DNA of 22,257 nt from a virus, in the IMG/VR virus record IMGVR_UViG_3300008450_000514, positions 1 to 22,257 of that record; one strand, written 5' to 3'. The stretch's first letter is position 1, and every line of letters begins with the position of its first letter. This document shows, piece by piece, positions 2,977 to 22,257 of this stretch. Below the pieces are notes generated by a model, which ran no database searches, was not told where the DNA came from, and saw only the letters and a program-made list of their open reading frames with translations. The translations under genes were made by a program, and so were the position numbers.

Positions 2977-3570
2977 TTAGGTTAGAATTCTAAACCAGAT
3001 ATCCCCGTCAACGCCGCCAGAAGGTGCATCAACACTAACCGTCACTCGGTTAGGGAAGTCCTTGTAGATAGTCGCATCACCAGTTTCATCGTCAAAGTAA
3101 AGAACGCCACCAGCGCGAGCTTGAGCATTTGGAAGTTGAGAATCTGGGGATATTTCGTAGTCTGTAAACCGCAGAGAGCGATCAATGCGATCCTTTGCGT
3201 CAGCAACCATTGCGGTGAGGATGTCTAGCTGTTCGTTCAACGCAGCGCGATTGATGTCAGCGCCCGCAGAGAAGTCACTGGTGCGCTCAATAGCCGTCCG
3301 ACGAAAGATAACAACGCTAGAGCCGCCAGTCGCACCAAGAACTTGCTGAACATCAGGAGGCGTTGCGGTGACAAACACTACGTTACCAGTAGAGCCGTCT
3401 CCACCAGTGAGCGTGTAGTCAGTGCCTTCCGCCTTTAGCACCCCATCGACATAGACACTTAGGTCAGAGTCGTTGAAGAACTCAAATGGCACAGCAAAGG
3501 TTTGCTGAGTCGCCCCTTGAGCAACTGTGTATTCAATACGCGGATTGTTGTCGGCAAGATTGATGGTCAT
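2977..3570 (-). CDS. T7 gp17 N-terminal-domain-like tail fibre adaptor
   Basis: A 197-residue protein. Residues about 10-135 match the T7 tail fibre N-terminal domain layout: an opening YTVAQGATQQTFAVPFEFF (T7-type 'fafpF.fl'), an LSVYVDG strand, a VVFVTATPP strand, VVIFRRTAIERTSDF, and then INRAALNEQLDILTAMVADAKDRIDRS, the long helix before the shaft. In T7 this domain fixes the fibre to the tail. Here the protein ends about 60 residues later (GDIWFRILT), with no shaft or tip, so it is probably an anchor onto which the following gene products dock. It is the first gene after a 58-bp gap carrying the conserved 16-base element (3611-3626), with SD GAGGTGAT just before the ATG. Confidence 0.88.
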   Translation of the reverse strand: MTINLADNNPRIEYTVAQGATQQTFAVPFEFFNDSDLSVYVDGVLKAEGTDYTLTGGDGSTGNVVFVTATPPDVQQVLGATGGSSVVIFRRTAIERTSDFSAGADINRAALNEQLDILTAMVADAKDRIDRSLRFTDYEISPDSQLPNAQARAGGVLYFDDETGDATIYKDFPNRVTVSVDAPSGGVDGDIWFRILT

Positions 3571-3610
3571 AGATCACCTCGTTGCCCTAGCAATTACAGC
3601 GAAAGAAGGC

Positions 3611-3626
3611 TGCATCAACGCACAAA
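3611..3626 (-). promoter_or_regulatory. conserved 16-base element, copy A (candidate late promoter or operator)
   Basis: The minus strand reads TTTGTGCGTTGATGCA in the 58-bp gap between the gp16-like gene and the fibre adaptor. It matches 15/16 bases of the element at 18411-18426 and ends 40 nt before the ATG, versus 43 nt there. Ungapped similarity continues downstream, including an AGGG(C/A)AAC segment 22-30 nt after the element. It contains a TGC..TTGATGCA near-palindrome. I see no convincing host -10 box at proper spacing. The position before the fibre gene corresponds to that of the T7 phi17 promoter. Confidence 0.5.
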
Positions 3627-3628
3627 GA

Positions 3629-6600
3629 TTATCTGATGCCAGTCACATTGTTGATGAAGGCGTTTGAGTCTTCTTTCAACCAGAACAGACCAGTCAATGG
3701 CAGCATCAGATAAAACTCTTTGAGTGCTTCCCCGTAATCGCCACCAGCAAGTTTGGCTGTAGCATCAAAGCCATCTTTGATAGTGCTAGAGCCAGCGCCA
3801 AGGATAGTAGTCGCGGCAGAGCCAAACCCATCCTCGCCATAAAACGACAATGGCAAGATGTCGTTTTCAGGGTTGTTAAGGCCAGCTTGCACTGAGAAGC
3901 GAAGAGAGTTCAGCGCAATGTCAGAGTAGATTGAGCCAATTCCACTACGCTCAAATGCCGCAGACAGCCTCTCTTCTTCATCCATATCTTCCCAAGCCCA
4001 GTCTGGAGTGCGAAGCTTGGCAAGCATATATCCAAATCCAAACATTGTAGCAAAACCAGCTACGCGATGTTTTGATTGCTGTTGGGCTGCGGTTCGAAGG
4101 ATGTTGCTATAAGCATTCATTGAGTAGTTGTAGAAGATAAACGGCATAGTCATGATGCCGCTTTCCATTTGAACATAGCCGGGAAAATCTTCAGCCTCTT
4201 GAGCGCTTGGATAGATTTTTCGCGCCTGCTTGATTGGCAAAAACACTGATCCATCAGCGTAAGTGTAGCGAGTGGCGGCGCTAGAGCTAAGAATTGTGTT
4301 GCCAATAGACATTGAAACAGCGGCTCTAAAAGAGGCAATGGTTTCAGTAGAGATGCCAAAAGTATCCCAGTCTTGGATGTTTGCAACAAAAAGTCCGTTT
4401 GAGGTTTTCTCAACAGGCGCTGACTTTGCAATTTCCTTAGCCGCTTTCATAGAAATTCCATGCCTTAGCAGATATTCACGGTCAAACTTAGAGGCGGTGC
4501 CATCAAGAATGCGACGAGAAATGTCCACAAAGTTATGAGCAGACAGGGAACCACCTAAAGTTTTTAGTGCAACAGTTGCTGGGCCAAGGCCGTTAAGAAC
4601 AAAGGCAGCATTCTTAATAGTTGTCCAAGTTTTTGAAGCAACCTTTGCCCCGGTATCCTCAATCGCTCTTTGCTGACTAATCCCAAGTGAAAGCTCAAGA
4701 GCTTCAGCAAACTCAGACTTCACAGCGCTCAATTGTTTTTGCCAAGCTTTGCTTTCAGCAGAAGCCATAATGCCTTTGAACGTATTCTTGAAGCCATGCT
4801 CAAAGATAATCTTTCCAAAGTCACCAATTGCAGTGAAGCCAGCGCCACCAAGGTAGTTTGTAGATGTAAACTCCTTGATGAACTGAACAGTCCTGTTGGT
4901 TAGGCTAGTCGGGTCTGAGAGCGTAGTTGCTGTGACGCGCTTGTGAAGGATGGTTAAGTCCTTCCTAAGCATGTTGGCCTTTTCAACGGAAACGCCATTA
5001 TCAATAAGATCGCCAACAAGTTCGTCAGCAAGATCGTTGTAGGTCTTGTTGCCAAATTGTTTGGAAAACTCGATCTTGTTTCCAATGTTGTGCGAGTAAG
5101 CTCTCATCACGCCACGAAAATCTGTGTCGATGAAGTCTATGATTTCCGAGTTTGGAATGTTGAGCATACGGCTGGGATACCGATTGCTTCTGCTGCTTGC
5201 AGAACTGTTGATTGGATCATCATCAGTCAAGATAGACTTGATAACCGAGTCAACATATCTGTCCTGTGCAGGAATATCCCCAGTCAAGTCGCGAGGCTTG
5301 TAGAGACCGCTTACGTTGTCGTATTCGGTCCCATATGGGTTGAGCCTAATGTATTCAGTAATCTTGCGACGAAACTCCTTCGGGCCAGCTTCATCCTTAG
5401 AGATTCGATCCACAAGATATTGACGTGTATAGAACGGCTCAGGTTTGCCCATTGGGCGAATGGGGCCAGACTGAATGTATGCTAAGCTGTTATTAAGCTC
5501 CGCCAACTCATCACTGAATTTTTTGAGCTGACCCCTCCAATACTTTGCAGCATCACTATCGTTCTGACGTGCAGCAAGAAGCCGATCAACTTCCTTACGA
5601 AGCTTTATGTTTGCATTATCAACCCGGTTCTGAGCAACCAAGATTCGCTGGTTAATAAAGTCTTGAGACCCGATAACGCCATACTGTTTAGCTTCATCGC
5701 CAATTTTTCCAAGGTAATCATCCATTAGCTTGGCTGCTTCCATTTCCTTTGGAAGCATTGGCTCACCCTTGATCCTCTTTATGTTTACGCTGTTTAGCCA
5801 GTCATCAAAAGTAGGACCAGACTTTGTAACCCTGCGGACAAGGTTTGGGGCAATCTTCGGCGCACTCGTCGCGTCCCTCCAGATAGAAGCAAGCTTTTCT
5901 TCAAAGTTATAAAGCTGACCGCGACGAAGCTTTACGTTGATTTCAACGCTAGGGGCGATTGTCATGCCAAGTTTTTGCCCAGCATAAAGTGTTGAGCTAT
6001 CACCAGCCAAAAGCAAAGCAGTCTTCTTAAAGACGTTTAATGCCTCACGCGCAGAAGATGTAGCGCCTGCATCTAGCTTAAACTTAGCAATGCTTGTCAT
6101 TGGCGTTGGCATGATGTCAACGTAATCGAAGAAGCTGCTAGCAATGGCATACGGGTCTTCGATTCCATCAACCAACCCTTCATCCAGTCTGCGGATGTTA
6201 AGCTCATCAATGATTGCTTGGCGCTGAGACGACATGTTGAGGATGTCAGCCTCAATGGTTTGGATAGCTGATGGTGGAAGGTTTAGTTGGCCGTTGTTGA
6301 TGCGATCAATTACCTGCTGCTTGCCAGTCATTTGCTGAGAGAGAAACATGCTGTCGGCTCGAAGTTTGTCCGCGTCAGCAGTTCCCATTGGGCGTTGGCC
6401 TTTGACCATAGCCTTTAGGATTTCCTGACGATCAACAAAGTCTTCCATTTCACGAATGGTCTGAGCGTGTTGGCCAAGGCGATAGTGGGCGTTGTCAACG
6501 TAATTGCCGTAGGCCTTCTTGCCAGTGTAGATACCACCGCCAAGCAAGCCGCCAACAGCAACGGATGCCGCAACATTAAATGCGCCTTCCATCGGATCGT

Positions 6601-7085: not shown

Positions 7086-10000
7086 TTAGTTCTGCCCTCT
7101 CAGTTTGCCTTGAAGTTCAAGAAGCTGCGAAACAATCTCATCGCGACGAGGGCTTGGGCGAAGTTCACCCATTGCTCGAATGACCTTGCGAAGTTGTCCG
7201 CTTGCAACCCCGGTGTCTTTGCCAGCCGACTCAGCAATCATTGGCATGAGCTTAGCCGCTTCTGAGTTCTTTCCAAGGACAGACGAAATGCTATCGACCA
7301 GTGCTTGATCCACTGTCAAAGCCATTGAGGCTGGGACTTGAGCGGGCGCTTCAATGCTTGGCGTTTGAACAGTAGCGGCTTCAGTCGTTTGCTGCTGAAC
7401 CTCTTCAGCCATATCCGGCGGAAGGGCTGCGGCAATTGCTTCCGCAGAAATTATTCCGTCTTCTACTGGCAGCGTTGGGCTTTCGGGCGGCATCATCTTT
7501 CCAAGTGCTTTAGCCATTGGCAAGCTATCAGCAGTAAAGGCGCTGTTAGGAACAACAGTTACAAACCCATTCTGATCTGCTGCGTAGAGTTGCCACTGTG
7601 GCTTAGACGTAGTTGACCCAGGCGTTGGGCCGTAGAATACGCGCCGAGCGATGCCCAAGTTTGCTTGAGCTTGAGACGCATTGCCAACAACGTCCTGAAC
7701 AATCTGAACAGGGAAGTAGTTTGGATTTGCCTGAAGTTCCTCAATCGAAACAATGCCCAGACCAACGCCGTAAGCGCTTCTCTTGGGAAAGCTTAGACGA
7801 TTGTCTTCCGTGCTAAGCTTCTTAACGATTTCAGCAACGCCGCTTTCAAAAGCCTTGATGTCGTAACCAAAGCTTTCAGGATGATGGCGAACAGTTGATC
7901 CACCAGTCAGGGGATCATAGCCATTAGGATTTTGAGTAAACCGCTTCTCAACGGCCTTCTCCATGATCCCATAGGCATTGCCACGATGAACAGTTGCCAT
8001 TGCCATTGCCAGTGGAACAAACTCATCCATCAATGAAGATGGAACGCCAAGGTTTGCCAGCATCTGAGCGGGATTGTCGTAGCTTGTAAGTTCTTTGAAG
8101 ATTTCGTCAGACATTGGGTCGCGCAGTCTATCGCCAACGGCAACGACATAAGAACCTTCAGCGCCAATTGGAGCCATCTCAGCAGCACTAACAAGTGCCT
8201 CAAGTTTTGCGGCATCGCCCTGAAACTCTCGAACAACGCCTTCGTTCACAGACATCTTTCCAGTTGCATCAACAGTGAAAAGATTTGAGCGAACATAGCC
8301 AAGAATGATCTGAGCTTGCTCAGCGGAAGCTGTGCCATTCAAAATTTGAGAGGCAGCATACTTAAGCTCTTTAGGAATGACGCCTCTATTGGCAATGCTT
8401 AGCGCAACAGCATTTGCCTCAGCCTCATTGGCAGGAGGACGCATAAAGAGATCAGTTGGAAGCGAAGCAAGGCCAACAGCCTGAGAGACTAACTGGCTGG
8501 TTTCTTCCGCAGTTTTGCCAACCAAAGTGCCAGCACCCAAGTTTTGCAGGTCAGTTTGCTCCTGCTGGATTGCTTGAGTCTGTGCAAAGCTCTTGGCAAT
8601 AGCTTCAGACTGACTTGAAAGCTCTTCAGATACCTTAGTGCGATTTGCAGAGACGACCTTTCCTTCGATGTTAGTCGATGTGCCAAGAGCTTTATCAATC
8701 TCAGCTTTCAACTCAGGCAACAAGTTTTTAGCATCATTTGGATTTCCAGTGTCAGCGTAGATAGATGCGGCTTTGAGTTGCTGAGAGCGCATTGCCGCAT
8801 CTGGGATGTTCGACAGAATGTTTGAGATTGAGCTATATGCAGCAGCCGTTACTGCCTTTGAAGCAGCATCAATGTGAGCAGGTGTTCCCGTCTGACCAGT
8901 TTTTGCTGCAAGAGCGTTAAGAACTCCAATATTGCTGGTGAAGTTTGCGCTCGTAGTGCCAGTTGAAATCCTTTCCGCGCCAAGATTGAAGTTCTTCTGG
9001 TTCTCGCCGTTCTGAAGCGTTGTCATCTTGGAAGACAGATCGCTGTTGATTGACTGAACATACTGAACAATCTCTGGATCAGCGTATGATCCATGCTTCT
9101 TGGTAAACGCAGCATAAGCAGCTTGCTTCTGTGCAAACGGAACAGTGTCGTCGCCAAAGATTGACTTCAGGGCCGTCGAATCTTCAGTGATATTGATCTG
9201 CGTCAGGCTTTTTTCTTTAGCCCGCGCAATGTCGCCACCTTGCTTCCAGCTTTTAGCAATAGAGCTAAGGGTTCCACCTTCTCCAGCAACTTCTGGCGCA
9301 AGAATGTTGTAGAAGATTGGCGGCATAATATCGGCAAGAGTTGCCTGATCCCCAGCAGCAAGAGCTTCCGCAAAGACAGACAATGTTTGGCCGCTTGGAT
9401 CACGGCTATTCAGCATTGACGAGACACGACGAACAACGCCTTCGTTCAACTGTTTCTCAGCAGAATTAATCTTAGAAAGGATCGAGTTGTAAGCGTCCCG
9501 GCCAATAACTCTTGGATCATACTTAGAGATTTCATCAATGAGCTGTTGTCTAGCCTGATAGATTTGAGTCGCTGAACCAAATTCGCCATAGCCAGCATAG
9601 GTGTTTGAGTCAACAGTCTGAGCCAAGGTGACATCAAAAACCGTAGCATTGTCTTTTTCGGCGGCAGCTTCAGCCTCAGACCTAGCTTTGGCATTGTTTG
9701 CAATCGCAGCCCCAACATCTTTTGAAATCTCAAAGACATCTTTGTTTTCATTGGCAAACTTTATGTAGTCAATCGGAGCATCAACCCCAGACATGACTTC
9801 CATTTGCTTGACAACACCACGTGCTGCTGGGCCCATCATCTCATAGATTGTCTTTTGGCCACCGCTCTGCATGTAGAGTTGGATAAGGCCAGAATCCACG
9901 GCCACATTTGGATCGGCCATTGCAGCAGACAAACGACCAGACATGTAAGCCGTGCGAGCTTTCTCAAGAAATTCAGGCTTAGAGTTTGGAGAAATTCCAG

Positions 10001-10673
10001 CATCAACATAGTCAATATGTTGAGCATTTATTCCTTTAGTAGCGCGGTCAGCTTGGTCAAACGCAACGGCACCGCCAGATGCGCCAATGTTAAACATGCT
10101 TTCGATGTAGGCGTCTTCAGACTTTTGCTTAGCAGCTTGAGCCTCAGCGCGGATTCTGTTCATCTGAGCAATCTGAAGCCGGGTGCGTCCGTCTTCCAGC
10201 GCAGACGCGCCACGATCCACAACGATCTGCTTATAGAAACCAGATGCGTTTGCACCAGTGCCTTCAAGATACTGAGAGAACGCAGTCTCAAAAGCCTTGG
10301 GCGAGTCCTGATACCTGTTGAGCATCAGCTCTTTTGTGTTCTGAATGTCGTCAGCAATAGCCTGCTCAAAGCGTTGAAGAGCTACCTTCTCAAACGCTTC
10401 CCGCGAAAACCGACCCATAGTCTGAGTTAGTTCCATTGCCATCGGAAGCTTGTTGTTGGCATCGAAGGTGGTGATGAGATTGATGTCAGTCTCAGCAGCA
10501 AGTTCACCGCCACGCTTTACAGCTTGATCGCGGGCAATCTCATAGGAGCGCCGATAAATTTGGTCTGCGCCAGAGACAACGGCTTCAGCAATCGACTGAC
10601 CAGCCTGCGGTGTCCGAAGAACGCCAATAGGCTGGATGCCAAATTCGCGAGTCTGACGTTTGATTTCGACCAT
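7086..10673 (-). CDS. large internal virion protein (T7 gp15-like by position and composition)
   Basis: A 1195-residue, mostly helical, Ala/Gln/Glu-rich soluble protein without clear TM segments. The N-terminus is MVEIKRQTREFGIQPIG. An RIRAEAQAAKQKSED-type coiled-coil segment lies near residue 174, and many regular Ala-rich helices fill the centre. A Pro/Ala/Thr-rich linker (about 1080-1115) precedes a C-terminal helical domain ending LLELQGKLRGQN. It is longer than T7 gp15 (747 aa) but in the same place between the gp14- and gp16-like genes, so a tube-forming ejection protein is the best call. The start overlaps the previous stop as TAATG. No enzymatic motif is visible. Identification rests mainly on synteny. 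Confidence 0.72.
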   Translation of the reverse strand: MVEIKRQTREFGIQPIGVLRTPQAGQSIAEAVVSGADQIYRRSYEIARDQAVKRGGELAAETDINLITTFDANNKLPMAMELTQTMGRFSREAFEKVALQRFEQAIADDIQNTKELMLNRYQDSPKAFETAFSQYLEGTGANASGFYKQIVVDRGASALEDGRTRLQIAQMNRIRAEAQAAKQKSEDAYIESMFNIGASGGAVAFDQADRATKGINAQHIDYVDAGISPNSKPEFLEKARTAYMSGRLSAAMADPNVAVDSGLIQLYMQSGGQKTIYEMMGPAARGVVKQMEVMSGVDAPIDYIKFANENKDVFEISKDVGAAIANNAKARSEAEAAAEKDNATVFDVTLAQTVDSNTYAGYGEFGSATQIYQARQQLIDEISKYDPRVIGRDAYNSILSKINSAEKQLNEGVVRRVSSMLNSRDPSGQTLSVFAEALAAGDQATLADIMPPIFYNILAPEVAGEGGTLSSIAKSWKQGGDIARAKEKSLTQINITEDSTALKSIFGDDTVPFAQKQAAYAAFTKKHGSYADPEIVQYVQSINSDLSSKMTTLQNGENQKNFNLGAERISTGTTSANFTSNIGVLNALAAKTGQTGTPAHIDAASKAVTAAAYSSISNILSNIPDAAMRSQQLKAASIYADTGNPNDAKNLLPELKAEIDKALGTSTNIEGKVVSANRTKVSEELSSQSEAIAKSFAQTQAIQQEQTDLQNLGAGTLVGKTAEETSQLVSQAVGLASLPTDLFMRPPANEAEANAVALSIANRGVIPKELKYAASQILNGTASAEQAQIILGYVRSNLFTVDATGKMSVNEGVVREFQGDAAKLEALVSAAEMAPIGAEGSYVVAVGDRLRDPMSDEIFKELTSYDNPAQMLANLGVPSSLMDEFVPLAMAMATVHRGNAYGIMEKAVEKRFTQNPNGYDPLTGGSTVRHHPESFGYDIKAFESGVAEIVKKLSTEDNRLSFPKRSAYGVGLGIVSIEELQANPNYFPVQIVQDVVGNASQAQANLGIARRVFYGPTPGSTTSKPQWQLYAADQNGFVTVVPNSAFTADSLPMAKALGKMMPPESPTLPVEDGIISAEAIAAALPPDMAEEVQQQTTEAATVQTPSIEAPAQVPASMALTVDQALVDSISSVLGKNSEAAKLMPMIAESAGKDTGVASGQLRKVIRAMGELRPSPRRDEIVSQLLELQGKLRGQN

Positions 10674-11113: not shown

Positions 11114-13308
11114 TAGATCATCAACTCCGCAATCAAGCCGTTCAACTGAAGCGGCAACGGTTCATTCTGAGATACAGTAACCTGTGGATCGCGCCCATAG
11201 CCAAGAAGTCGAAACTCCTTCTTGCCACTGAACGTAGAGTCTATCGACGCAGCCCTGTTGTTTACCTTTACGGATCGAGTTGAGCGCAAGTCAACGATAG
11301 CAGCAGAGACGCCACGGACATCGCCAGTTCTAGGCCCGCCCTGAAGCGCAGCATCAATTGGGTTTGTCGTCACGCTAACTGGGAAGGCCACACCAACGTG
11401 GTAGGTTCCAGTGTATCCAGTCATAGAAATTTTGTTGACACCGCCATCTAGGACAACAGTTCTTTGACCAATGTATTGAAGGCCATCATTACTTACGACA
11501 GAAACGACATCGCCAACACTGTAAGAGCTACCAACAGTGATGTAATTAGATGAAACGGTTCCAGTGACGTAAAAGTCTAGGCCAATTTCTCCGTCAAACT
11601 CGCACAGGTGCATATCGCCATCTGCATCATAGACATTGGCAAACACTCTTGTTCCAATGCCAAGAACCGAACAGAAGTTTCCGTCAGTGGTCAATCGAGT
11701 CCAAGATGCACGTTTTTCAGCGCGGTTGGAGTTGAAGAGCGCAATATCCCCATTTGCATTTGACATGAACGCATAAGATTCAGCCTGACCAAATGCTCCA
11801 TGAGTAACAGTCATGCACTTTGGCGTCACAATCAAATGAGAAGCCAACGTAGAAACAGATGTCGAGGTGTAGGCGTCTTCACGATCTGTGTAGAGATACT
11901 CTCGAACAACAGTTCCGCCGCGCTGAACGTAGATTGTTGCCCCGTCAATCGAAACTGGCTGAACGTGGTCGCACCCATACGGAGTTTGCAACCGAATTTG
12001 CACATTGGTTGGCGTAATTGGCTGGTTAAGGTAGCTAGGGACATACAACTCGCCCCATGCACCGAAGATTTGCAAATCACGGTTGGAGATTAGGTATCTA
12101 ATCTCATTCACAGTGCCAGTAGCGGCAACAAGAGCAATGGCATCCGTATCTCCAGCATCGCGAACATCGAAGTTGAAGAAGTCGCCAAGTGCGCTCATCC
12201 AAAGTGAGTCGGGTTGAGCCAAGGTTCCTGCGTAACACAGTCTGTTTTCGTGAAAAACTACAGCCGCAGGGTATCCGCGCACCGCAGAGAAAGCTTGTTC
12301 GTCCCAGTCCGCGCTTGGAGCGTGAGTTGTAATGGTAACATAGCCACCGCCATCTTCTGCCAAAGACGCAGCGCCTCCAGCGGTGAAATACCAAGTGTTT
12401 TCATTAATCACGCCACCAACAGTTCTGGTGCCATTAAGGTTGCCAGCGTTGATGCCACCAGTTGCGCTTGCATTAGAGATCACAACGCTTTCGCCACCAG
12501 CAAAACCATGAGCAATCTGTGTAACCTCAACTCTGGTGCTGCCATCAGTGGTTCTAAGTGGGTTTAAGACCGACAATCTAATTGCAAGTGTGTCGATCAC
12601 CGTTCCAGTCACAACAGTCGAAGAGGTGTATGCAGTAATTTCAATCTCTGCCTCACCATAGCGAACAACGGCTCCAACATGGTCCGCTGTCCAGTGTGGT
12701 GCGCTTGTGGTCAGCGTAACCGATCCAGTCGTTCCGCTTGGATTAAGCGTCACACCAGTAGCCTGAAACTTAGAGTAAGGCTGATAGGTTTTCAGGCCAT
12801 CATATCGCTGGTCAAACGAAAACGGAGTTACCTCAAAGCTGGTAAGGCCCGTCCGAATGATCATTCGCGGCATGAACAACGGATGGCAGATGAACATTAC
12901 ATCGCCATACTGGGCATAGGTGTATTCTTGCAGGTAATCCTGATCGAACGGCAAAGGATCAGCATTTGTATCTTGAGTGATTGTTTCCTCTAGGGTCACA
13001 GTGCCATTCGGATTGAGGAAGAAGCAACGAACCTGCTCATGCTCAACGGAAACCAAATACTGCTCATCGTCGGAGAAGACGAATTTAAACAGGTGGGACT
13101 GAGCGGGATTAGCGGAGTCAAAGACAATGCCATAGTCGTAAATGTGCTTGAGCCCGTAACGTTTCTTTACGGACCCCTCAGACATTACGATCATGTTTTC
13201 TAGCGATTGAGCCGAGGATGCGTAGACTGGACTGTCAACGCGCATTAGCAAAGAGCCACTGACTTCCCCATACTGAAAGCTATTGATTGGGACTCTGACC
13301 TTTTGCAT
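11113..13308 (-). CDS. tail tubular protein B (T7 gp12-like nozzle)
   Basis: A 731-residue protein that forms the distal nozzle of the short tail in this family. Its N-terminus has the usual layout: VPINSFQYGEVSGSLLMRVD, then YASSAQSLENMIVMSEGSVKKRYGLKHI (the 'l.N....qG.v.rRpGl..i' pattern). Next come repeated beta-propeller-like strands, including HLFKFVFSDDEQYLVSVEH, GDVMFICHPLFMPRMIIR and AVVFHENRLCYAGTLAQPDSLWMSALGDFFNFD. That last segment is a strong marker of the family. Length is close to T7 gp12 (794 aa). TAATG overlaps at both ends. No odd features. Confidence 0.92.
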   Translation of the reverse strand: MQKVRVPINSFQYGEVSGSLLMRVDSPVYASSAQSLENMIVMSEGSVKKRYGLKHIYDYGIVFDSANPAQSHLFKFVFSDDEQYLVSVEHEQVRCFFLNPNGTVTLEETITQDTNADPLPFDQDYLQEYTYAQYGDVMFICHPLFMPRMIIRTGLTSFEVTPFSFDQRYDGLKTYQPYSKFQATGVTLNPSGTTGSVTLTTSAPHWTADHVGAVVRYGEAEIEITAYTSSTVVTGTVIDTLAIRLSVLNPLRTTDGSTRVEVTQIAHGFAGGESVVISNASATGGINAGNLNGTRTVGGVINENTWYFTAGGAASLAEDGGGYVTITTHAPSADWDEQAFSAVRGYPAAVVFHENRLCYAGTLAQPDSLWMSALGDFFNFDVRDAGDTDAIALVAATGTVNEIRYLISNRDLQIFGAWGELYVPSYLNQPITPTNVQIRLQTPYGCDHVQPVSIDGATIYVQRGGTVVREYLYTDREDAYTSTSVSTLASHLIVTPKCMTVTHGAFGQAESYAFMSNANGDIALFNSNRAEKRASWTRLTTDGNFCSVLGIGTRVFANVYDADGDMHLCEFDGEIGLDFYVTGTVSSNYITVGSSYSVGDVVSVVSNDGLQYIGQRTVVLDGGVNKISMTGYTGTYHVGVAFPVSVTTNPIDAALQGGPRTGDVRGVSAAIVDLRSTRSVKVNNRAASIDSTFSGKKEFRLLGYGRDPQVTVSQNEPLPLQLNGLIAELMI

Positions 13309-13886: not shown

Positions 13887-13895
13887 GTGGGGTTA

Positions 13896-13913
13896 GGGGG
13901 GCCGAAGCCCCCC
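13896..13913 (-). promoter_or_regulatory. C(UUCG)G hairpin between SD and start codon of the gp11-like gene
   Basis: The minus strand reads GGGGGGC UUCG GCCCCCC, a perfect 7-bp GC stem capped by the extra-stable C(UUCG)G tetraloop. The SD AAGGAGA (13914-13920) lies directly 5' of the stem and the ATG (13886) 9 nt after it. Linear SD-to-ATG spacing is thus about 27 nt, but folding would bring it to a normal distance. The site also matches the T7 Tphi terminator position (after the capsid, before gene 11), yet no U-tract follows (UAACCCCAC). A structured ribosome site or transcript-stability element fits better than a classical terminator. Confidence 0.7.
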
Positions 13914-13922
13914 TCTCCTTTC

Positions 13923-14194: not shown

Positions 14195-14211
14195 CTGATT
14201 CTCCTTATCAG
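14195..14211 (-). promoter_or_regulatory. Shine-Dalgarno displayed in a hairpin loop
   Basis: On the minus strand CUGAU-AAGGAGA-AUCAG forms a 5-bp stem with the full SD as its 7-nt loop. The 5' arm contains the UGA stop of the capsid gene and the 3' arm ends 2 nt before the AUG. A terminating ribosome would open the stem, so translation of the decoration-like gene may be tied to capsid translation (inference). Confidence 0.55.
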
Positions 14212-15017
14212 TTGTTGTCGAGCAGTTCGTAGATGCCGTTGCTATCAATTGCGATAGCGCCCATCGACATCATCGAAGTTGCAAGGTGCGAGACTTTCTC
14301 GGCCACATAGTTGATTTCCGTCTGCACATCGGCGTTGATGCCGAGGCCGACTGCGGAGGTGTGGTAGGCAAAGTTCTTGCCAGCCGTAACCGCCGAGGTC
14401 GAGAAAATCTTGAAGCCAAGGAATTCCTTCATGGTCATGCCGCCAGCAAACGGCAGGTTCTGCGGGCCAACAAAGTCCGAGGAAGCAAACTCGGTGATGT
14501 TGAACAGGTCCGCAAAGCCCTTCGGGTGCATAGCGATGTAACGCTGACCATCTTCGGGAACGTCATTGGTGCCGAACAGTTCGAACAGGGTCAGCATGTC
14601 AGCCTTTTCAACAGCAGCAGCAGCCGAGTTGACTTGGGTTCCGTTTGCGCCTGCGTCCATAGCGGTGATCAAAATCTCGTCGGTCTTGCGACCCAGAGCG
14701 GCAGCAGCCGACTGAGCAACAGCTTGACGCTCGTTGATGTTGATCTTCAGTTCGTCCAGCTTGTCGATGTATTCGGCAGCGTAGAAGTCTGCCATCGTTG
14801 CTTCGACGTAGGTGTGAGCCAGTTCCATCGGAGTGACCATACCATTGCGGGATTTGGTCGAGGCAGAGCCAGCGCCGATTTTCTGGAAGCGAGCAGACGA
14901 ACCCGTCACGTTGGTCGTGCGAACAGTGTTCCGCAGTTTGGAACCCATGCGCTGATACGCCATGTGAACTTCGGTCTCGAACTGCTTGATGAAGGCTTGG
15001 TCGATAGTGTTTGCCAT
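14208..15017 (-). CDS. major capsid protein
   Basis: A 269-residue protein starting MANTIDQAFIKQFETEVHMA. Family features are the N-terminal helix with HMAYQRMGSKLRNTVRT, the RFQKIG and YVEATMADFYAAEYIDKLDELKININERQ segments (spread over residues 40-95), QRYIAMHPKGFADLF, NLPFAGGMTMKEFLGFKIFST, and a C-terminal IDSNGIYELL. It belongs with short HK97-fold podovirus capsid proteins. T7 gp10A is 344 aa. An in-frame TTG two codons upstream is less likely than this ATG. The SD is weak (GGA about 9 nt away), and an 8-bp stem lies just upstream (15031-15073). An out-of-frame ATG at 15030 precedes it. Scaffold and gp13-like genes lie upstream and the decoration-like gene downstream. Confidence 0.9.
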   Translation of the reverse strand: MANTIDQAFIKQFETEVHMAYQRMGSKLRNTVRTTNVTGSSARFQKIGAGSASTKSRNGMVTPMELAHTYVEATMADFYAAEYIDKLDELKININERQAVAQSAAAALGRKTDEILITAMDAGANGTQVNSAAAAVEKADMLTLFELFGTNDVPEDGQRYIAMHPKGFADLFNITEFASSDFVGPQNLPFAGGMTMKEFLGFKIFSTSAVTAGKNFAYHTSAVGLGINADVQTEINYVAEKVSHLATSMMSMGAIAIDSNGIYELLDNN

Positions 15018-15030
15018 TTTCAAGGTCCAT

Positions 15031-15073
15031 GTTGAAGTTGCGGTCGGACGGGTATCCGCCTTCTCACTTCAAC
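15031..15073 (-). promoter_or_regulatory. 8-bp stem-loop in the leader of the capsid gene
   Basis: In the 77-bp gap before the capsid ATG, GTTGAAGT and ACTTCAAC form a perfect 8-bp stem (outer arms 15066-15073 and 15031-15038 on the minus strand). A smaller GCGG/CCGC or CGGA/TCCG stem can form inside. The base of the stem is 13 nt from the start codon. Plausible roles are mRNA processing or 5' stabilisation for a highly expressed transcript, or translational control. It has no U-tract and is not a terminator. Confidence 0.5.
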
Positions 15074-15094
15074 GAGGGTGTCCTTGCGGGCCTC

Positions 15095-15604
15095 TCAGTG
15101 CAGCACGGGCCGTGATGTCACAGTCTCACCAGATTTTACTTGTGGACTGCAACGCACAAAACGGATGACCACTTGTCCATTTGCAGTTTGAATATCACGT
15201 TCTGGCAAAAAGCCAAGAGAAACTAACCACTGATGGATCATCTCGTTCTCTGTCCAAACATCACAGGTTAGGCGCGGATGCAGCAGATTGTAGAAAGCCA
15301 TCAATTTGATTGAAGCTCTGGCAAAACTAATCCAGTGTTTCCGCATGTCTTTGCTAAACATGGCCCACATAAAGCCGTGATCTGGATCAATGCCAGTCAC
15401 CGCCAATGCCTGACCATCCTTCTCCACAGCATAGACCAGAGGATTGTGAACGATAGCCTCAAGTGATTCGAGAGGCGACCGCTCATAGAGTGTTTCAAAC
15501 TCTCTAAGGTTTTCTGAGCTAAGATTGGCTACGAAGGGTAGGATGTGGCGCTGTTCTAACGCCACAAGCCGTAGGCCACGCTCTTCAAGGAACGGCTTAG
15601 CCAT
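15095..15604 (-). CDS. T7 gp13-like (internal virion protein A type, GNAT-like fold) protein
   Basis: A 169-residue protein from the ATG at 15604 (MAKPFLEERGLRLVALEQRH). This start overlaps the scaffold stop as ATGGCTAA. The ATG 14 codons upstream has no SD and would overlap scaffold by 50 bp. Its second half resembles T7 gp13 in layout: LVYAVEKDGQALAVTGI, GFMWAMFSKDMRKHWISF, LTCDVWTENEMIHQWLVSLGF (T7: 'v..gN..HirfL...Ga.f'), then a final GQVVIRFVRC strand. T7 gp13 is needed for assembly but is not kept in the mature virion, and the fold resembles GNAT acetyltransferases without proven activity. Its place between scaffold and capsid, not after gp12, is unusual and suggests a morphogenesis role. 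Confidence 0.75.
   Translation of the reverse strand: MAKPFLEERGLRLVALEQRHILPFVANLSSENLREFETLYERSPLESLEAIVHNPLVYAVEKDGQALAVTGIDPDHGFMWAMFSKDMRKHWISFARASIKLMAFYNLLHPRLTCDVWTENEMIHQWLVSLGFLPERDIQTANGQVVIRFVRCSPQVKSGETVTSRPVLH
15150..15160 (-). promoter_or_regulatory. partial copy C of the 16-base element, upstream of the capsid gene
   Basis: The minus strand reads TTTGTGCGTTG followed by CAGTCC, identical over 11 bases to copy A (TTTGTGCGTTG-ATG-CAGCC) except for three missing bases and one substitution after it. It lies inside the 3' end of the gp13-like gene, 132 nt before the capsid ATG. In T7 the capsid gene also has its own promoter (phi10). It is partly constrained by coding (F-V-R-C), so it may be chance. 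Confidence 0.3.
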
Positions 15605-16352
15605 AGATTTTCTTGAACCCTGCATCGACCTTCTTGATGAAGTCATTGTCGCGCTTGGATGGGTTCCAGTAACGCTCGTCCCGCATCATCTCGCGCAGGT
15701 CCGCTTCGGAAGTGCCGCTTGCCGGATTCGCGCCTTGAGCAAAGCTACCATCCTTCATTGCGTCCATCATTACCTCAAGGGCAACAATGCCTTCTGCGCT
15801 TTCGCACAGACGCTCAATGGCAGGCAAAGTTTCTTTGGGGAAAAACTTGTTTGCAAACATTGACGCAGCTTCAATGCGTTGGTTTGCGCTGTCCCCTAGT
15901 TTCTTAACTTCTGCGCCCAAGTCCACAGGGCTTGGAAGCGAATCCATGTAGGTCTTGATGCCGCTTTCAAATTCATCCTGAGAGTATCCGTTCTCGAATG
16001 AGTGATCGGCCCACCACTTCAGCAACGGATTGTCGCCAATCTCAGACGAGTCAACGTAGTCTGGAAGGGCATACTCGCCAGCAGATGCAGGGCGATCTTT
16101 GTATGCCTCAGACTGAAGCTCCTCAATCACTTTCTTACGCAACTCTTCGTCGCGTGTGCCAAGCTTGCCCTCAAGCTCTTTGTAGGCTTTAGCCAAGTCT
16201 TCGGGAGACTTGTATTTCTCAGGGAGCCATTCGGGGCGCTGAGAAGAATCAGTTTGCTGTGGTGCAGCTTGAGTTACTGCGTCAGTGATCTGGCTATTCT
16301 GCGGTGCAGCAGTTGTATCCTGCGGTGCAGCGCCCAAGAGGGATTCGCTCAT
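15597..16352 (-). CDS. capsid assembly scaffolding protein
   Basis: A 251-residue acidic protein of the T7 gp9 type. The N-terminal 35 residues are Gln/Ala/Thr-rich and disordered. They are followed by the typical RPEWLPEKYKSPEDLAKAYKELEGKLG segment (residues about 39-65), charged helices, and a basic helical C-terminus (DNDFIKKVDAGFKKIYG), as expected for the capsid-binding end. It acts inside the procapsid and is normally lost on maturation. The ATG overlaps the stop of the Bbp19-like gene (ATGA). Its own stop overlaps the gp13-like start by 8 bases. Confidence 0.88.
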   Translation of the reverse strand: MSESLLGAAPQDTTAAPQNSQITDAVTQAAPQQTDSSQRPEWLPEKYKSPEDLAKAYKELEGKLGTRDEELRKKVIEELQSEAYKDRPASAGEYALPDYVDSSEIGDNPLLKWWADHSFENGYSQDEFESGIKTYMDSLPSPVDLGAEVKKLGDSANQRIEAASMFANKFFPKETLPAIERLCESAEGIVALEVMMDAMKDGSFAQGANPASGTSEADLREMMRDERYWNPSKRDNDFIKKVDAGFKKIYG

Positions 16353-16612
16353 TGTTTGCTCCTGTGTGCATGGGAAATGCGGCGCTCAAGAAGGCCGACG
16401 AGATAACGCTGCCCCTCTAAGTGCCGCAATTCTTCTGTGCTAATGCTGGGTCCACTGACCATTTCGATGGTCACTGAACGAAGATAGCGGAGAACTTCCT
16501 TTCCCGTGGGGGATGAGAAGACCTCCGCTATGTTCTGACTGATCTGTTTGTCCTGCTCGACTGATCGAGTCATGCCGTCTATGCCGATGTTAACCTTGGG
16601 CTGGTTGACCAA
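16349..16612 (-). CDS. Bbp19-like small phage protein
   Basis: An 87-residue protein between portal and scaffold. Residues 28-80 read like the Bbp19-like phage domain: AEVFSSPTGKEVLRYLRSVT, then a short loop, then LRHLEGQRYLVGLLERRI ('F.s..G..VL..L......f......h.EG.R.l...I...I'). Its function is unknown, and it is usually found beside head genes. The start is uncertain. TTG at 16612 has a good SD (GGAG, 6 nt spacing) and overlaps the portal end by 23 bp. The ATG at 16573 (74 aa) lies after the portal stop but has no clear SD and would remove only the non-conserved N-terminus. Confidence 0.72.
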   Translation of the reverse strand: MVNQPKVNIGIDGMTRSVEQDKQISQNIAEVFSSPTGKEVLRYLRSVTIEMVSGPSISTEELRHLEGQRYLVGLLERRISHAHRSKQ

Positions 16613-18128
16613 GTTGCGCTCCAGACTGTTGCTGCGCTAACTGCTGCGCCATTGCAGCTATCTGCTTACGCTGGTCTTCGTCGCGGATCAAGCTTTCTGG
16701 AACACCAAACTTCTTCGCCAAGTGAATAGCAGTCTTTTCGCCATCAATGAGAAGCTGCAACATCTCAGGGCCGAAGGTTCCACCAACAAGCTGCAAGTAG
16801 CGGGCGACATTCGAGATGTCTTGATTGGCTTGAGCTTGTGCCAGCGGAGACACCGAGCGAACTTTGACCTCGCGGCCATTAATCACTGGCATCTGAATGC
16901 GGCCCTGCTTCTTCAGGATATAGATCACGCGCTGAAGAACGGGCTGAACCAACTCAGCTTGCAGTCGGCCAAAGGCGGAACCGATGCGCCGCGAAAGGTC
17001 GGCCATGCGCTCAGCCACTTCCGTAGCCGTGGCAGGCGTCTTGTCTGGGTTGCCCAGCATATCGTTGTAAAGCGCCCGCTTAATGTTCAAGCGCATGTCG
17101 CTTAGGATAAGCTGGGCCACGTCAAACCGACCAGCAGCATTGATGGGCTGCAAGCCTTGGCTTCCCATGGCCTTGGGAATGATCGTGCCGGGAACCAAAC
17201 GGATTGTATCGGGGTTGATCACCCCATCGTCTTCCATTTGGTAGATACCGCTGATCGACATCTGAGCGTTTTCAAGGATCAACTCAATCGTCAGGTTCGT
17301 GGTCTTGATAGCAGAAAGAGCATTGAGAAGCGGGCCCCGGCCATAGACTTCACCAGCGCACTTTGACCAGCGGAAGCAAACAAACGGATTGGAGCCAACG
17401 CCCTTCATCTGTTTCTTATGCAAGACAGTCTGCGTCTCCATGCAGATTGCGTAGTGGTAGTAACCCTCTTCATTGCGAAGATCGTAGTCGCGGCACACCA
17501 CCTCAAGCACAGTGGTCGTGTCGTCGCCCTTCATGCGAGCCATAACCTTTTGGTCAAACGTCCCCTTGGGATAGAGGATTTCCAGATCAGCGTATCGAAC
17601 CTTCTTCCGCTCACGAAACACATGGTCGATGCGGTCATCAGGCCCAGTATCTAAGACGATGTGCGGCAACGGAACTGCTGAGAAGACGATAGGGTTAATT
17701 GAGTCCCCCTCTTCTACAGCCAAGACGCCAGTGCCAACCGCCAAATCCATGAACGACTCATGGACTTCTTGGTTAAAGTTGGAGCTTTGAAGGATTTCGA
17801 AGACATACTCAGTGACCGAATCAAGGTCGTTGTCTACTGAGTCGCGCTGATCTGGCGGAACCTCTGAGCCGGAAACAAGGTCGGCCCACCGCGCAAAGTT
17901 AGGCACAAGGCCGCTTTGCAGTCGGCTAGCAAACTCTTGCACACCAACCACGGCAGTCTCGTCAAAGATTCTATCGTCGCGGCGCTGACCAGCTTCCTCA
18001 TAGTAAAACGACTCGCGCTGAGGAAGCGCATACTCGTAGCACTCCTCAAACAACGGAACCCAGTTCTCCCGAAAAGCCTTGGCCTTTTGGTAGCGATCTA
18101 GATACTTCTTGGCCAAGGGGTCTTTCAT
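16590..18128 (-). CDS. portal (head-to-tail connecting) protein
   Basis: A 512-residue protein, close to T7 gp8 (536 aa), forming the dodecameric ring for DNA entry and tail attachment. Family features: KKYLDRYQKAKAFRENWVPLFEECYEYALP at the N-terminus, then DDRIFDETAVVGVQEFASRLQSGLVPNFARWADLVSG. The core has YHYAICMETQTVL, FVCFRWSKCAGEVYGRGPLLNALSAIKT, and TATEVAERMADLSRRIGSAFGRLQAELVQPVLQR, a hallmark of the head-tail connector family. The C-terminus is Gln-rich (MAQQLAQQQSG) and flexible. The ATG overlaps the previous stop (TAATG). Confidence 0.93.
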   Translation of the reverse strand: MKDPLAKKYLDRYQKAKAFRENWVPLFEECYEYALPQRESFYYEEAGQRRDDRIFDETAVVGVQEFASRLQSGLVPNFARWADLVSGSEVPPDQRDSVDNDLDSVTEYVFEILQSSNFNQEVHESFMDLAVGTGVLAVEEGDSINPIVFSAVPLPHIVLDTGPDDRIDHVFRERKKVRYADLEILYPKGTFDQKVMARMKGDDTTTVLEVVCRDYDLRNEEGYYHYAICMETQTVLHKKQMKGVGSNPFVCFRWSKCAGEVYGRGPLLNALSAIKTTNLTIELILENAQMSISGIYQMEDDGVINPDTIRLVPGTIIPKAMGSQGLQPINAAGRFDVAQLILSDMRLNIKRALYNDMLGNPDKTPATATEVAERMADLSRRIGSAFGRLQAELVQPVLQRVIYILKKQGRIQMPVINGREVKVRSVSPLAQAQANQDISNVARYLQLVGGTFGPEMLQLLIDGEKTAIHLAKKFGVPESLIRDEDQRKQIAAMAQQLAQQQSGAQLGQPAQG

Positions 18129-18367
18129 TATTCAAACCTGCTCAGGTAGCCAGCACCGCCGCCGGGAGATGTGAACAAGGAGCGACGACCAGAGCCGCCA
18201 CGTTTAGCAGCATTTGCTATCCGCATATCGAGTGCTGCGCCAATATCTTGCTTTTTTTGGACAGCTTTTTCTTGGATTGCTTCTTCTTTTGCAACTTCTG
18301 CTTCTACCTGTTGCTCAGCAGCAGCTTTATTCTCTTTGGGACTTGGTCCCGCGCTCTTGAAACACAT
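18128..18367 (-). CDS. small pre-portal protein, coiled coil with Gly-rich C-terminus
   Basis: A 79-residue protein. The N-terminus is MCFKSAGPSP. Residues about 12-45 are an Ala/Glu/Lys/Gln coiled coil (ENKAAAEQQVEAEVAKEEAI and onward). The C-terminus is basic and glycine-rich (RRSLFTSPGGGAGYLSRFE). Proteins with this two-part layout, especially the 'GRRSLFTSPGG.GYL.RF' end, often precede the portal gene in podoviruses. No function is established as far as I know. It is the first gene after an 81-bp gap with a terminator-like hairpin and the 16-base element, with an ideal SD AGGAGG 6-7 nt before the ATG. It overlaps the portal by TAATG, so it probably starts the head transcript. Confidence 0.78.
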   Translation of the reverse strand: MCFKSAGPSPKENKAAAEQQVEAEVAKEEAIQEKAVQKKQDIGAALDMRIANAAKRGGSGRRSLFTSPGGGAGYLSRFE

Positions 18368-18410
18368 GGTTGCCTCCTATGTTTCCCTTGGAAAAGCACA
18401 GATGCGCGAT

Positions 18411-18426
18411 TGCATCAATGCACAAA
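18411..18426 (-). promoter_or_regulatory. conserved 16-base element, copy B (candidate late promoter or operator)
   Basis: The minus strand reads TTTGTGCATTGATGCA in the gap between terminase large and the pre-portal gene, 43 nt before the ATG. It differs from copy A (3611-3626) at one base. TGCAT-TG-ATGCA inside it is a perfect 5+5 palindrome. Downstream, an AAGGGAAAC segment aligns without gaps to TAGGGCAAC at copy A. It overlaps the U-run of the hairpin at 18428-18446, a terminator-then-promoter arrangement. Confidence 0.5.
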
Positions 18427-18446
18427 ACAGCGAAGCAGCTTCGCTG
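18424..18446 (-). terminator. terminator-like hairpin after terminase large
   Basis: Just after the TAA of terminase large, the minus strand reads CAGCGAA-GCTGC-TTCGCTG followed by TTTTG: a perfect 7-bp stem, 5-nt loop and a run of four U. The stem is moderate in GC and the U-run short, so it may act as a leaky terminator or an mRNA 3' end, separating the packaging transcript from the head transcript. Confidence 0.5.
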
Positions 18447-18448
18447 AA

Positions 18449-19972
18449 TTACATTCTGGCCCAGAGTCCCTGCCTGCGCTTGGGCTTATCTTGCCGCTCA
18501 AACACGTTAAAGTCACGCTTTGCGACCGTAACCTGTGCTGGTTTTTGTGAGTTCATCAAGGCTCGTCCCTCGCCTGCGCCGAGAAGAAGATACTGCAAGG
18601 CGTCATGAACGTGGCTATACATGTTCTTGTCGGGCTTGTCGGCATACCGCTCTCCCGAAACCTCCATCCGCTTGTAGGAATAGCCACCCTCGAAGCCCTT
18701 GATGATGGTCGAACACCTGCGATCTATGAGAAACGCTGGCTTTCCCTCCACCATCTTAGTCAATTGGGACGCAACAGCCTCAATCCGCAGGTCTGGAGAG
18801 TTGGATGGAGCAGGAAATGCCCTCAGTCCAGCGCCACGAAGGATGTGGAACGGCGTGGATTCGTCTGTCTGCGCTCTGAAATCGCCAGCCGGATCACCAT
18901 AGATGATAGTTTCGCCCGCTGCCGCAAATCTAGTTGCCAGTTCGTTGCGTAGAACCTCAGCAAACCTGACAATCCCCATGTCAATTGCCACGATCTCAGA
19001 CTGGATGAGCCATCGGCCCCTGATCTTCTGACCAATCGCAGCCGCTGGCGTCAGACCAAAGTCCAATCCGACATAGACAGGAAGCCCCGCAGCAATCGGA
19101 ACCTCCTCTGTGGCAATGTGGGCCTCTGCCGCGAACATAGGATACACTGGTTTCCCATCCTGAATGGTGCCAAGGCGGTTCATCACATAGACATCAATCC
19201 AACTCTTGGTCTTGCCCTGAATTAGATTGGGGTAATAGCTCTGCATCATGTTCTTGCGGTTCTCAGCAAGAGCATTCGGGACATACTTGTCTACCGATCC
19301 CTCGTCGTCCCTTACCTCTGACATGCCGGGAGGCTGGGTGAAGAAGCGCCAGTTGTCTGGCTTCACCAGCATCTTGGCCTGCTCTCGCGGAATGTGGTCT
19401 GGAATCGGAACCTCGCCCGACATGATCGGCCACCAGTGATCCTCTTCCGGCGCGTTGGTATCTGCAATCACGCCAGTCCAGCTAGGGCCACCATCACGCA
19501 TAGAAGGGTAGCGACCGACACGCATGGTGCAGGCGTCAATAATGCTCTTGGGAATCTCTCTGGCCTCGTTGATCCAGATGCCCGTAAGTTCTAGTGACAG
19601 AAGCTTCTTCACATCTTCGGGTCGATCAAGGGCGAGGAAGATAACCTCAAGCTCCATGTCGCCCTTCTTGATGTTGTGCGTGTAAGGCACTGACCAAGTA
19701 AACTTGCCCCAGTCATTCTCTGGGAACCAGTCCAGCCAAGTCTTGATCGTCGTCGTTCTTAACTGTGGGTTTGTGTTTCGGATGATGGCCCATCGACTCT
19801 TGCGCTTACCATCCGGCCCCTTTGCCTGCATCAAGGCGCGACGAAACACCTCAACGCAACAGCCGACAGACTTGCCGCTGCCAACTGGACCCCTGATGCC
19901 ACGAAAAAAAGTATCGTCCTTCATGAACTGCTTTAGCACTTCACCATCAGGCTTATACTTGAAGTCGATCAT
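18449..19972 (-). CDS. terminase large subunit (packaging ATPase and nuclease)
   Basis: A 507-residue DNA packaging motor subunit. The ATPase domain has Walker A GPVGSGKS at residues 28-35 and a Walker B-like LTGIWINEARE with catalytic Glu136 (Asn precedes it where many terminases have Asp). The RNase H-like nuclease has Asp304 in VGLDFGL, Asp360 in IYGDPAG and Asp457 in HVHDALQYLL, the usual acidic set. The C-terminus is basic (RQDKPKRRQGLW), suiting portal or DNA contact. The ATG overlaps the preceding stop (ATGA) with SD AAAGGAC. It lies directly upstream of the portal cluster, unlike T7, where the terminases follow the tail fibre. Confidence 0.95.
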   Translation of the reverse strand: MIDFKYKPDGEVLKQFMKDDTFFRGIRGPVGSGKSVGCCVEVFRRALMQAKGPDGKRKSRWAIIRNTNPQLRTTTIKTWLDWFPENDWGKFTWSVPYTHNIKKGDMELEVIFLALDRPEDVKKLLSLELTGIWINEAREIPKSIIDACTMRVGRYPSMRDGGPSWTGVIADTNAPEEDHWWPIMSGEVPIPDHIPREQAKMLVKPDNWRFFTQPPGMSEVRDDEGSVDKYVPNALAENRKNMMQSYYPNLIQGKTKSWIDVYVMNRLGTIQDGKPVYPMFAAEAHIATEEVPIAAGLPVYVGLDFGLTPAAAIGQKIRGRWLIQSEIVAIDMGIVRFAEVLRNELATRFAAAGETIIYGDPAGDFRAQTDESTPFHILRGAGLRAFPAPSNSPDLRIEAVASQLTKMVEGKPAFLIDRRCSTIIKGFEGGYSYKRMEVSGERYADKPDKNMYSHVHDALQYLLLGAGEGRALMNSQKPAQVTVAKRDFNVFERQDKPKRRQGLWARM

Positions 19973-22225: not shown

Positions 22226-22257
22226 ATCTCATGGCCCCCCCTGATCCCCCCCATAAT
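22218..22257 (-). CDS. possible C-terminal end of an upstream gene (partial)
   Basis: A minus-strand frame is open from the right edge to a TAG at 22220-22218, encoding LWGGSGGAMRYV, and overlaps the terminase small start by 8 bases. Such overlaps are normal in this genome, but the fragment is too short to judge, and it runs through the G-tracts. Confidence 0.2.
   Translation of the reverse strand, partial: LWGGSGGAMRYV
22235..22252 (-). promoter_or_regulatory. G7-N4-G7 tract (G-quadruplex-compatible) before terminase small
   Basis: The minus strand reads GGGGGGGATCAGGGGGGG, two runs of seven G separated by ATCA, ending 9 nt before the terminase small ATG. Each G7 can supply two GGG runs, so the tract fits the G3+N1-7 quadruplex rule. 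It may act as SD-like purine, as a translation block, or as part of a packaging recognition site. These are inferences. Confidence 0.45.

Follow-up and report, generated by a model that had tools for sequence, protein, structure and literature searches.

The question raised by this locus is what a 16-base element, carried twice on the minus strand between virion genes, does there and which protein reads it. The window, as the whole stretch of DNA under analysis is called here, is 22,257 bases long and by itself makes up the virus record IMGVR_UViG_3300008450_000514, and searches of the phage's own genome were confined to these bases. It contains genes for terminase, portal, capsid, tail tubular, internal virion and fibre proteins. 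The first-pass annotation had proposed that the two 16-mers constitute a phage-specific late promoter, served either by an undescribed phage RNA polymerase or by a dyad-binding regulator. Comparison with related phages strongly supports the late promoter, by the places at which the element occurs, by its spacing to a TG and an A and by frozen codons, and points to a promoter much more widespread than first thought, with a small early protein as the candidate regulator. The core of the element, the decamer TTGTGCRTTG, is very probably the heart of late promoters preceding virion gene blocks in a large group of uncultured, podophage-like phages. For this group, which comprises hundreds of IMG/VR contigs and has hardly any named relative, the analysis predicts how late transcription is organized and where it starts, and names a candidate master regulator; the decamer also offers a means to detect such phages and to determine their orientation.

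The repeated element and its copies in the window

The two 16-mers are located at 3611-3626 and 18411-18426, are identical at 15 of 16 positions with one base different, and are separated from the next ATG by 40 and 43 nt, as originally described. The statement that such a match between gaps is unlikely by chance was borne out as well, since the best real gap-to-gap match was 15/16, whereas 300 dinucleotide shuffles reached at most 14 (in 2 of the 300). This test covered seven gaps, and the region above 19,972 was left out because gene calls there are uncertain. A scan allowing up to three mismatches is weak when taken by itself, with two or more matches in 17 of 100 shuffles. The similarity AGGG(C/A)AAC downstream of both 16-mers was confirmed, and the predicted start base falls within it. 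Relatives conserve TTGTGCRTTG but not the dyad TGCAT-TG-ATGCA. Three exact copies of this decamer are found in the window, all on the minus strand, as compared to about 0.08 expected, and the third, before the capsid gene, had been missed in the first pass.

The genes, promoter sites, hairpins and leader given here for the window are on the minus strand. The fibre-site decamer, site A (TTGTGCGTTG, 3616..3625), is located 3 nt past the stop codon for the internal virion protein and would serve the fibre/adaptor gene at 2977..3570, which matches tail fibre families (best phrog_1640, E 2e-12). The terminase-site decamer, site B (TTGTGCATTG, 18416..18425), follows the gene for the terminase large subunit (TerL, 18449..19972), the same place that it takes in relatives, and is followed first by a small pre-portal gene (18128..18367, without PHROG match) and next by the portal gene (16590-18128; phrog_332 head-tail adaptor, E 9e-97). 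The capsid-site decamer (TTGTGCGTTG, 15150..15159) is situated within the 3' end of a gene at 15095-15646, where it encodes Phe-Val-Arg-Cys, and would serve the major head protein gene at 14208..15017 (phrog_3437, E 5e-60).

Between the TerL stop and site B, the sequence CAGCGAA-GCTGC-TTCGCTG followed by TTTT (18428..18446) forms a predicted terminator-like hairpin; a similar hairpin is present in the relative L055, and its 3' arm adjoins the site in the relative G001. Another likely hairpin, with a UUCG-type loop and without a T run, lies between virion genes at 13887-13922 (GGGGGGCTTCGGCCCCCC). The capsid mRNA leader past the stop, at 15018-15094 (GAGGCCCG...), appears conserved in relatives and may be structured.

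Recurrence of the decamer in related phages

At least 600 IMG/VR stretches contain relatives of the window TerL, from which 80 loci were taken for a survey of the TerL site. TTGTG(C/A)(A/G)TTG was found at the TerL stop in 69 of the 80 loci; four others carry the exact decamer overlapping the TGA stop, one has TTATGTATTG, five are without it and one contig ends in the gene. When loci were anchored on other genes, the exact decamer was found upstream of the capsid gene in 67 of 77 assessable loci (10 without, 3 too short), at the fibre gene in 71 of 76 (5 without, 4 too short) and at the small terminase (TerS) gene in 42 of 74 (32 without, 6 too short). The search of related phages that the first-pass annotation had suggested finds the decamer recurring at fixed places, namely before TerS, after TerL, before the capsid gene and before the fibre gene. 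Some phages have an extra copy between TerS and TerL, where it precedes a further small gene, such as that at 13050 in G013. In G015 and G023, the variant TTGTGAGTTG occupies both the TerL and TerS sites and the two other copies keep TTGTGCGTTG.

A strong strand bias was observed in 46 contigs (window, Hodr and MEP301 included, near-duplicates kept), with 123 exact copies on the virion-gene strand versus one on the opposite strand. A chance match, or a packaging-site repeat without any role in transcription, would fit the three-mismatch scan, which by itself is unremarkable, but has a negligible probability in view of two to four exact copies per decamer-bearing contig at fixed places, as compared to about 0.1 expected.

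The named phages nearest by TerL are Pelagibacter phage Hodr (OQ414635; 65%), which is the only named relative above 45%, Methylophilales phage MEP301 (MW452941; 43%) and Burkholderia phage BcepC6B (also 43%). Unlike the window, the Hodr and MEP301 records contain no exact decamer. In assembled genomes, relatives were found at 14 loci, 12 of them in metagenome bins of unlike phyla and two in named Vibrio strains. A literature search for the decamer gave, among the matches listed, no phage paper by title.

Anatomy of the proposed promoters

The anatomy was examined in non-redundant sites selected by their exact decamer (30 TerL, 32 capsid, 25 fibre and 12 TerS sites). Counted from the first T of the decamer, a TG is found at 27 nt in 28 of 30 TerL sites, at 28 nt in 28 of 32 capsid sites and at 29 nt in 9 of 12 TerS sites, while fibre sites are divided between 27 nt (10/25) and 28 nt (9/25). 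A TG at any of the offsets 27-29 is present in 29/30 TerL, 28/32 capsid, 19/25 fibre and 11/12 TerS sites. Within the sites with such a TG, an A is located 15 nt beyond its T in 93% of TerL (29 sites), 96% of capsid (28) and 95% of fibre sites (19), and T+15 has the highest A fraction over T+8 to T+19 in each of these three classes. The 11 TerS sites have at T+15 a purine run, mostly G, in place of the A. In the window, the TG and the predicted start A are located at 3597..3598 and 3583 for site A, at 18397..18398 and 18383 for site B and at 15130..15131 and 15116 for the capsid site, with the TG 27, 27 and 28 nt from the decamer start, respectively.

In the standard register of an extended -10 promoter, the T of the TG is at -15 and the start at +1. 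Given this T and the conserved A as these two positions, the decamer would span about -42 to -33 with its TTG at -35, which for site A proposes 3616-3618 as the -35 TTG. A full TTGACA is present in all 12 TerS sites of the decamer-chosen set, and the other classes are without it. The decamer-chosen sites thus have a TTGACA-like hexamer within the 16-19 nt expected before the -10, its TTG being present by construction, and in this register the TG falls at -15/-14, with a purine as the predicted start 15 nt past its T. For a TATAAT-like -10 hexamer, the best scores are higher than those of shuffles for capsid (4.53 versus 4.03) and TerS sites (2.15 versus 0.76) and lower for TerL (2.32 versus 3.23) and fibre sites (2.18 versus 3.05). 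The reading of TNTGCT as the -10 of TerL sites was dropped once the other site classes and the start A had set the register. From the decamer start to the predicted start the distance is 42-44 nt, with a spacing that depends on site class. The predicted geometry is that of a host sigma70-type extended -10 promoter and is not T7-like.

The position of the decamer on the sense strand, about 50-150 nt upstream of the next gene, would also suit an element of the late transcript itself, such as a processing, translation or antitermination signal. However, the distance to the gene varies widely whereas the distances to the TG and the A are nearly fixed, TTGACA completes the decamer at TerS, and the link to an XRE protein described below points to DNA, which makes a role in RNA very improbable.

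A purine run (GGGGGGAGAGAGGGAGAGGGGGG or shorter) is found at 22226-22257 of the window and, in many relatives (G045, G020 and L358 among them), separates the TerS promoter from the TerS start. This run is also present in decamer-free relatives and represents a possible packaging site or leader element.

Constraint on the capsid copy

The first-pass annotation had counted matches within coding regions against a promoter. The capsid copy is such a match, yet synonymous sites there are nearly frozen, and because of this it constitutes the best evidence for selection on the DNA. In a set of 46 non-redundant genes assembled without regard to the decamer, the codons covering it are almost invariant (TTT in 44/45, GTG in 38/39, CGT in 41/43), whereas control codons in the same genes vary, with two conserved Phe residues split 25/13 and 31/15 between their codons and a conserved Arg using six codons. 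In the 32 non-redundant decamer-bearing capsid sites, the codon with the T of the TG has T as its third base in 31, and the codon with the predicted start has A as its third base in 30, these 30 codons specifying nine different amino acids. This codon comparison demonstrates a DNA-level constraint on the capsid copy inside the gene, and such synonymous freezing of a putative in-gene promoter preserves its anatomy, including the TG and the start A, with unusual clarity.

Candidate readers of the site

The first-pass annotation had envisaged an undescribed phage RNA polymerase and proposed that a single-subunit polymerase gene be sought beyond the window. Such a promoter would agree with an element that is phage-specific and lies in gaps between virion genes, and with structural genes that are T7-like. 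However, no single-subunit RNA polymerase (PF00940) was found in 41 records, with T7 as a positive control, and no sigma region 2 (Sigma70_r2) in 27 records; the records may be incomplete, and the window genome is a fragment, with 25 relatives being at least 30 kb long. An undescribed phage polymerase is unsupported because of this absence of PF00940 and Sigma70_r2 matches and because the spacing is not the same in all site classes but shifts by 1-2 nt, which is a trait of -35/-10 promoters. With no PF00940 match in the 41 records and the decamer placed 42-44 nt from the predicted start, a T7-like promoter can hardly be the right explanation.

Some phage proteins were considered as readers and rejected. 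TGTGCRTTG resembles a DnaA box, and a phage protein with DnaA domain IV is encoded in G001 (9979-10404, plus strand) and in five other records; it was set aside as present in only 6 of 41 records. The zinc-ribbon neighbour comp14 stays in G045 and G046, both without exact decamer. The second HTH-like neighbour comp17 also stays in these two and is absent from G010, which has three decamers.

An XRE protein that accompanies the decamer

Outside the window, relatives carry an early operon on the other strand that encodes comp15, an 82-aa HTH_3 (XRE) protein located at 6158-6409 in G001, the nearest relative of the window. Both domain and fold place comp15 in this family, with an HTH_3 match of 27.7 bits against a cut-off of 23 and an AlphaFold model (pLDDT 85) whose nearest folds are C.AhdI, HipB, C.BclI and P22 c2 (E 2e-3 to 1e-2). 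A profile search with comp15 returns XRE proteins, and its helix GC(T/A)xSL(I/V)HKWE is found in 168 of 185 matches, duplicates included.

Presence of comp15 was established in all 25 decamer-bearing contigs where its neighbour comp14 was found; G004, G015 and G017 reach only the operon edge and G031 is without that stretch. G045, G046 and G026 are without comp15 although other genes of the operon are retained, and their virion strand carries no exact decamer. From the operon set, G045 lacks only comp15 and G046 lacks comp15 and comp25, and in both the flanking genes abut or overlap. An exact TerL site was found in 36 of the 37 comp15 contigs and in none of the 4 without the gene (Fisher 5e-5, relatedness ignored), the sole comp15 contig without an exact site being G023 with TTGTGAGTTG. 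Two further searches gave 136 loci with operon context, 120 with comp15 and 16 without. The exact decamer is absent from all 16, of which 7 cover a late site that could be assessed. In 58 comp15 loci with an assessable late site, the exact decamer is present at a checked site in 24 and not in 34. Nearly all of the latter were judged only by the TerS site, which frequently lacks the decamer in any case. Twelve comp15 loci of at least 10 kb are without an exact decamer: nine yielded no late gene, two can be assessed at TerS only and one has a one-mismatch fibre copy. The apparent exception L547 begins inside the operon. On the best terminase tree, the label needs three changes and only two independent pairs are available, both concordant (p 0.5), and the apparent gene-site link comes from few independent events. 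Regarding the regulator proposed to bind the 16-mers, a small XRE gene does come and go with the decamer, while the site is asymmetric and is not the dyad that had been named.

Ten near-invariant asymmetric bases followed by a fixed TG resemble the -35/-10 pair of a sigma factor, and the decamer could be the -35 of a non-housekeeping sigma or another specificity factor, encoded by the host or by an unrecognised phage gene, with the XRE gene linked to it by descent only. Independent gene-site events are few, which leaves room for this explanation. It is nonetheless quite unlikely, as Sigma70_r2 was not detected in the 27 records searched, related phages lack the decamer and the XRE gene together, and the start geometry fits an ordinary extended -10.

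Variants of comp15 and of its putative site were also compared. Diverged comp15 homologues in Hodr and L359 are without the HKWE..PSGF signature, and neither the Hodr record nor the L359 locus has an exact decamer. The comp15-less G046 has CTGTGCATTGACA, with one mismatch, at the TerS site, and G045 and L358 have TTGTTCGTTG in the capsid-site codons; these may be relics. The helix residue C46 is changed to I or V in G023, G055 and G051, which belong to the clade with TTGTGAGTTG sites, and not in G056, which has a variant site with a normal helix, and G030 has H52 changed to G yet exact sites. Covariation of recognition helix and site is suggestive only, and helix changes do not track site changes cleanly.

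Activation or repression

The explanation that we consider probable as a whole is that these are late promoters activated by comp15 and used by the host RNA polymerase, with the decamer as their upstream half. Host RNA polymerase with its housekeeping sigma would begin transcription at the predicted A. The TTG of the decamer would serve as the -35, completed to TTGACA at TerS, and would be followed after 17-19 nt by an extended -10 that combines the TG with a poor hexamer. Directly upstream of the -35, TTGTGCR would be the binding site of the small early XRE-type protein, which, placed beside sigma region 4, would activate the promoters at the late stage of infection. Palindromes are the usual binding sites of XRE proteins, and the asymmetry of TTGTGCRTTG counts against XRE binding in this explanation.

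XRE proteins frequently act as repressors, and the decamer overlaps the -35 TTG in a geometry of host sigma70 type. It could then be an operator at which the XRE protein, bound over the -35, silences virion genes early or in lysogeny, host sigma70 being sufficient for transcription. What makes repression unlikely is that TerL and fibre -10 hexamers are poor for unaided promoters, and that the comp15-less G045 and G026 have lost the TerL promoter gap and keep only TTGACA at TerS. The same TTGACA without TTGTGC at the TerS promoter is found in L358/L359, where comp15 is present but far diverged, and in G020, where the operon falls outside the contig. In these relatives, too, the TerL gap is gone or nearly so, and short decamer-less gaps are kept in G046 and G044. 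Since the TerL gap is lost and only TTGACA is left at TerS, such promoters appear to be of little use without the XRE protein, from which we infer that it is an activator. A narrower proposal is that comp15 by itself retargets host RNA polymerase to a fused TTGTGCR and -35 TTG, a one-protein sigma appropriation governing a late regulon of three to four promoters; we offer this tentatively, as a possibility that is more doubtful than probable.

Comparison with known systems

The proposed activation by comp15 resembles the MotA/AsiA middle promoters of T4, which combine a phage box with a -10 element and in which host RNA polymerase is redirected by phage proteins (PMC6755090). There, the MotA box takes the place of the -35, with its centre at about -30, and the DNA-binding domain of MotA is a double-wing (PMC6755090). 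In contrast, the decamer centre would be at about -38 in the predicted register, spanning about -42 to -33 and including the -35 TTG, and the protein is XRE and not double-wing. The controller (C) proteins of restriction-modification systems are small XRE activators acting on a promoter-region box, and C boxes are palindromic and located in the promoters of the C gene itself or of linked genes (PMC4824078). comp15 is likewise a small XRE protein, with C.AhdI and C.BclI among its nearest folds. Unlike C boxes, its putative site is a single asymmetric decamer at virion promoters, the flanks carry no conserved palindrome and only 1 of 124 exact copies is on the opposite strand. In the ORF lists of two genomes, no restriction or modification genes stood out. 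Neither system is the one seen here, given the position of the MotA box and the palindromes bound by C proteins.

The XRE fold of comp15 is also shared with the P22 c2 and lambda CI repressors. These control lysogeny from palindromic operators, and lambda CI activates PRM from a site near -42. P2 Ogr and P4 delta are small phage proteins that switch on several late promoters with host sigma70; they are zinc-finger proteins and bind a dyad near -55. The zinc-ribbon-like early neighbour of comp15 does not follow the site, as it stays in G045, G046 and G026, all without a virion-strand decamer.

The early genes have an organization of their own. In G013 (7451-8148, minus strand), the HTH-like, XRE and zinc-ribbon genes overlap by up to about 130 nt when first start codons are used, and the same gene order is found in 21 other genomes. 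In G009 (43,851 bases), the early operon occurs twice within a single contig, in differing versions, which may reflect a misassembly or a composite.
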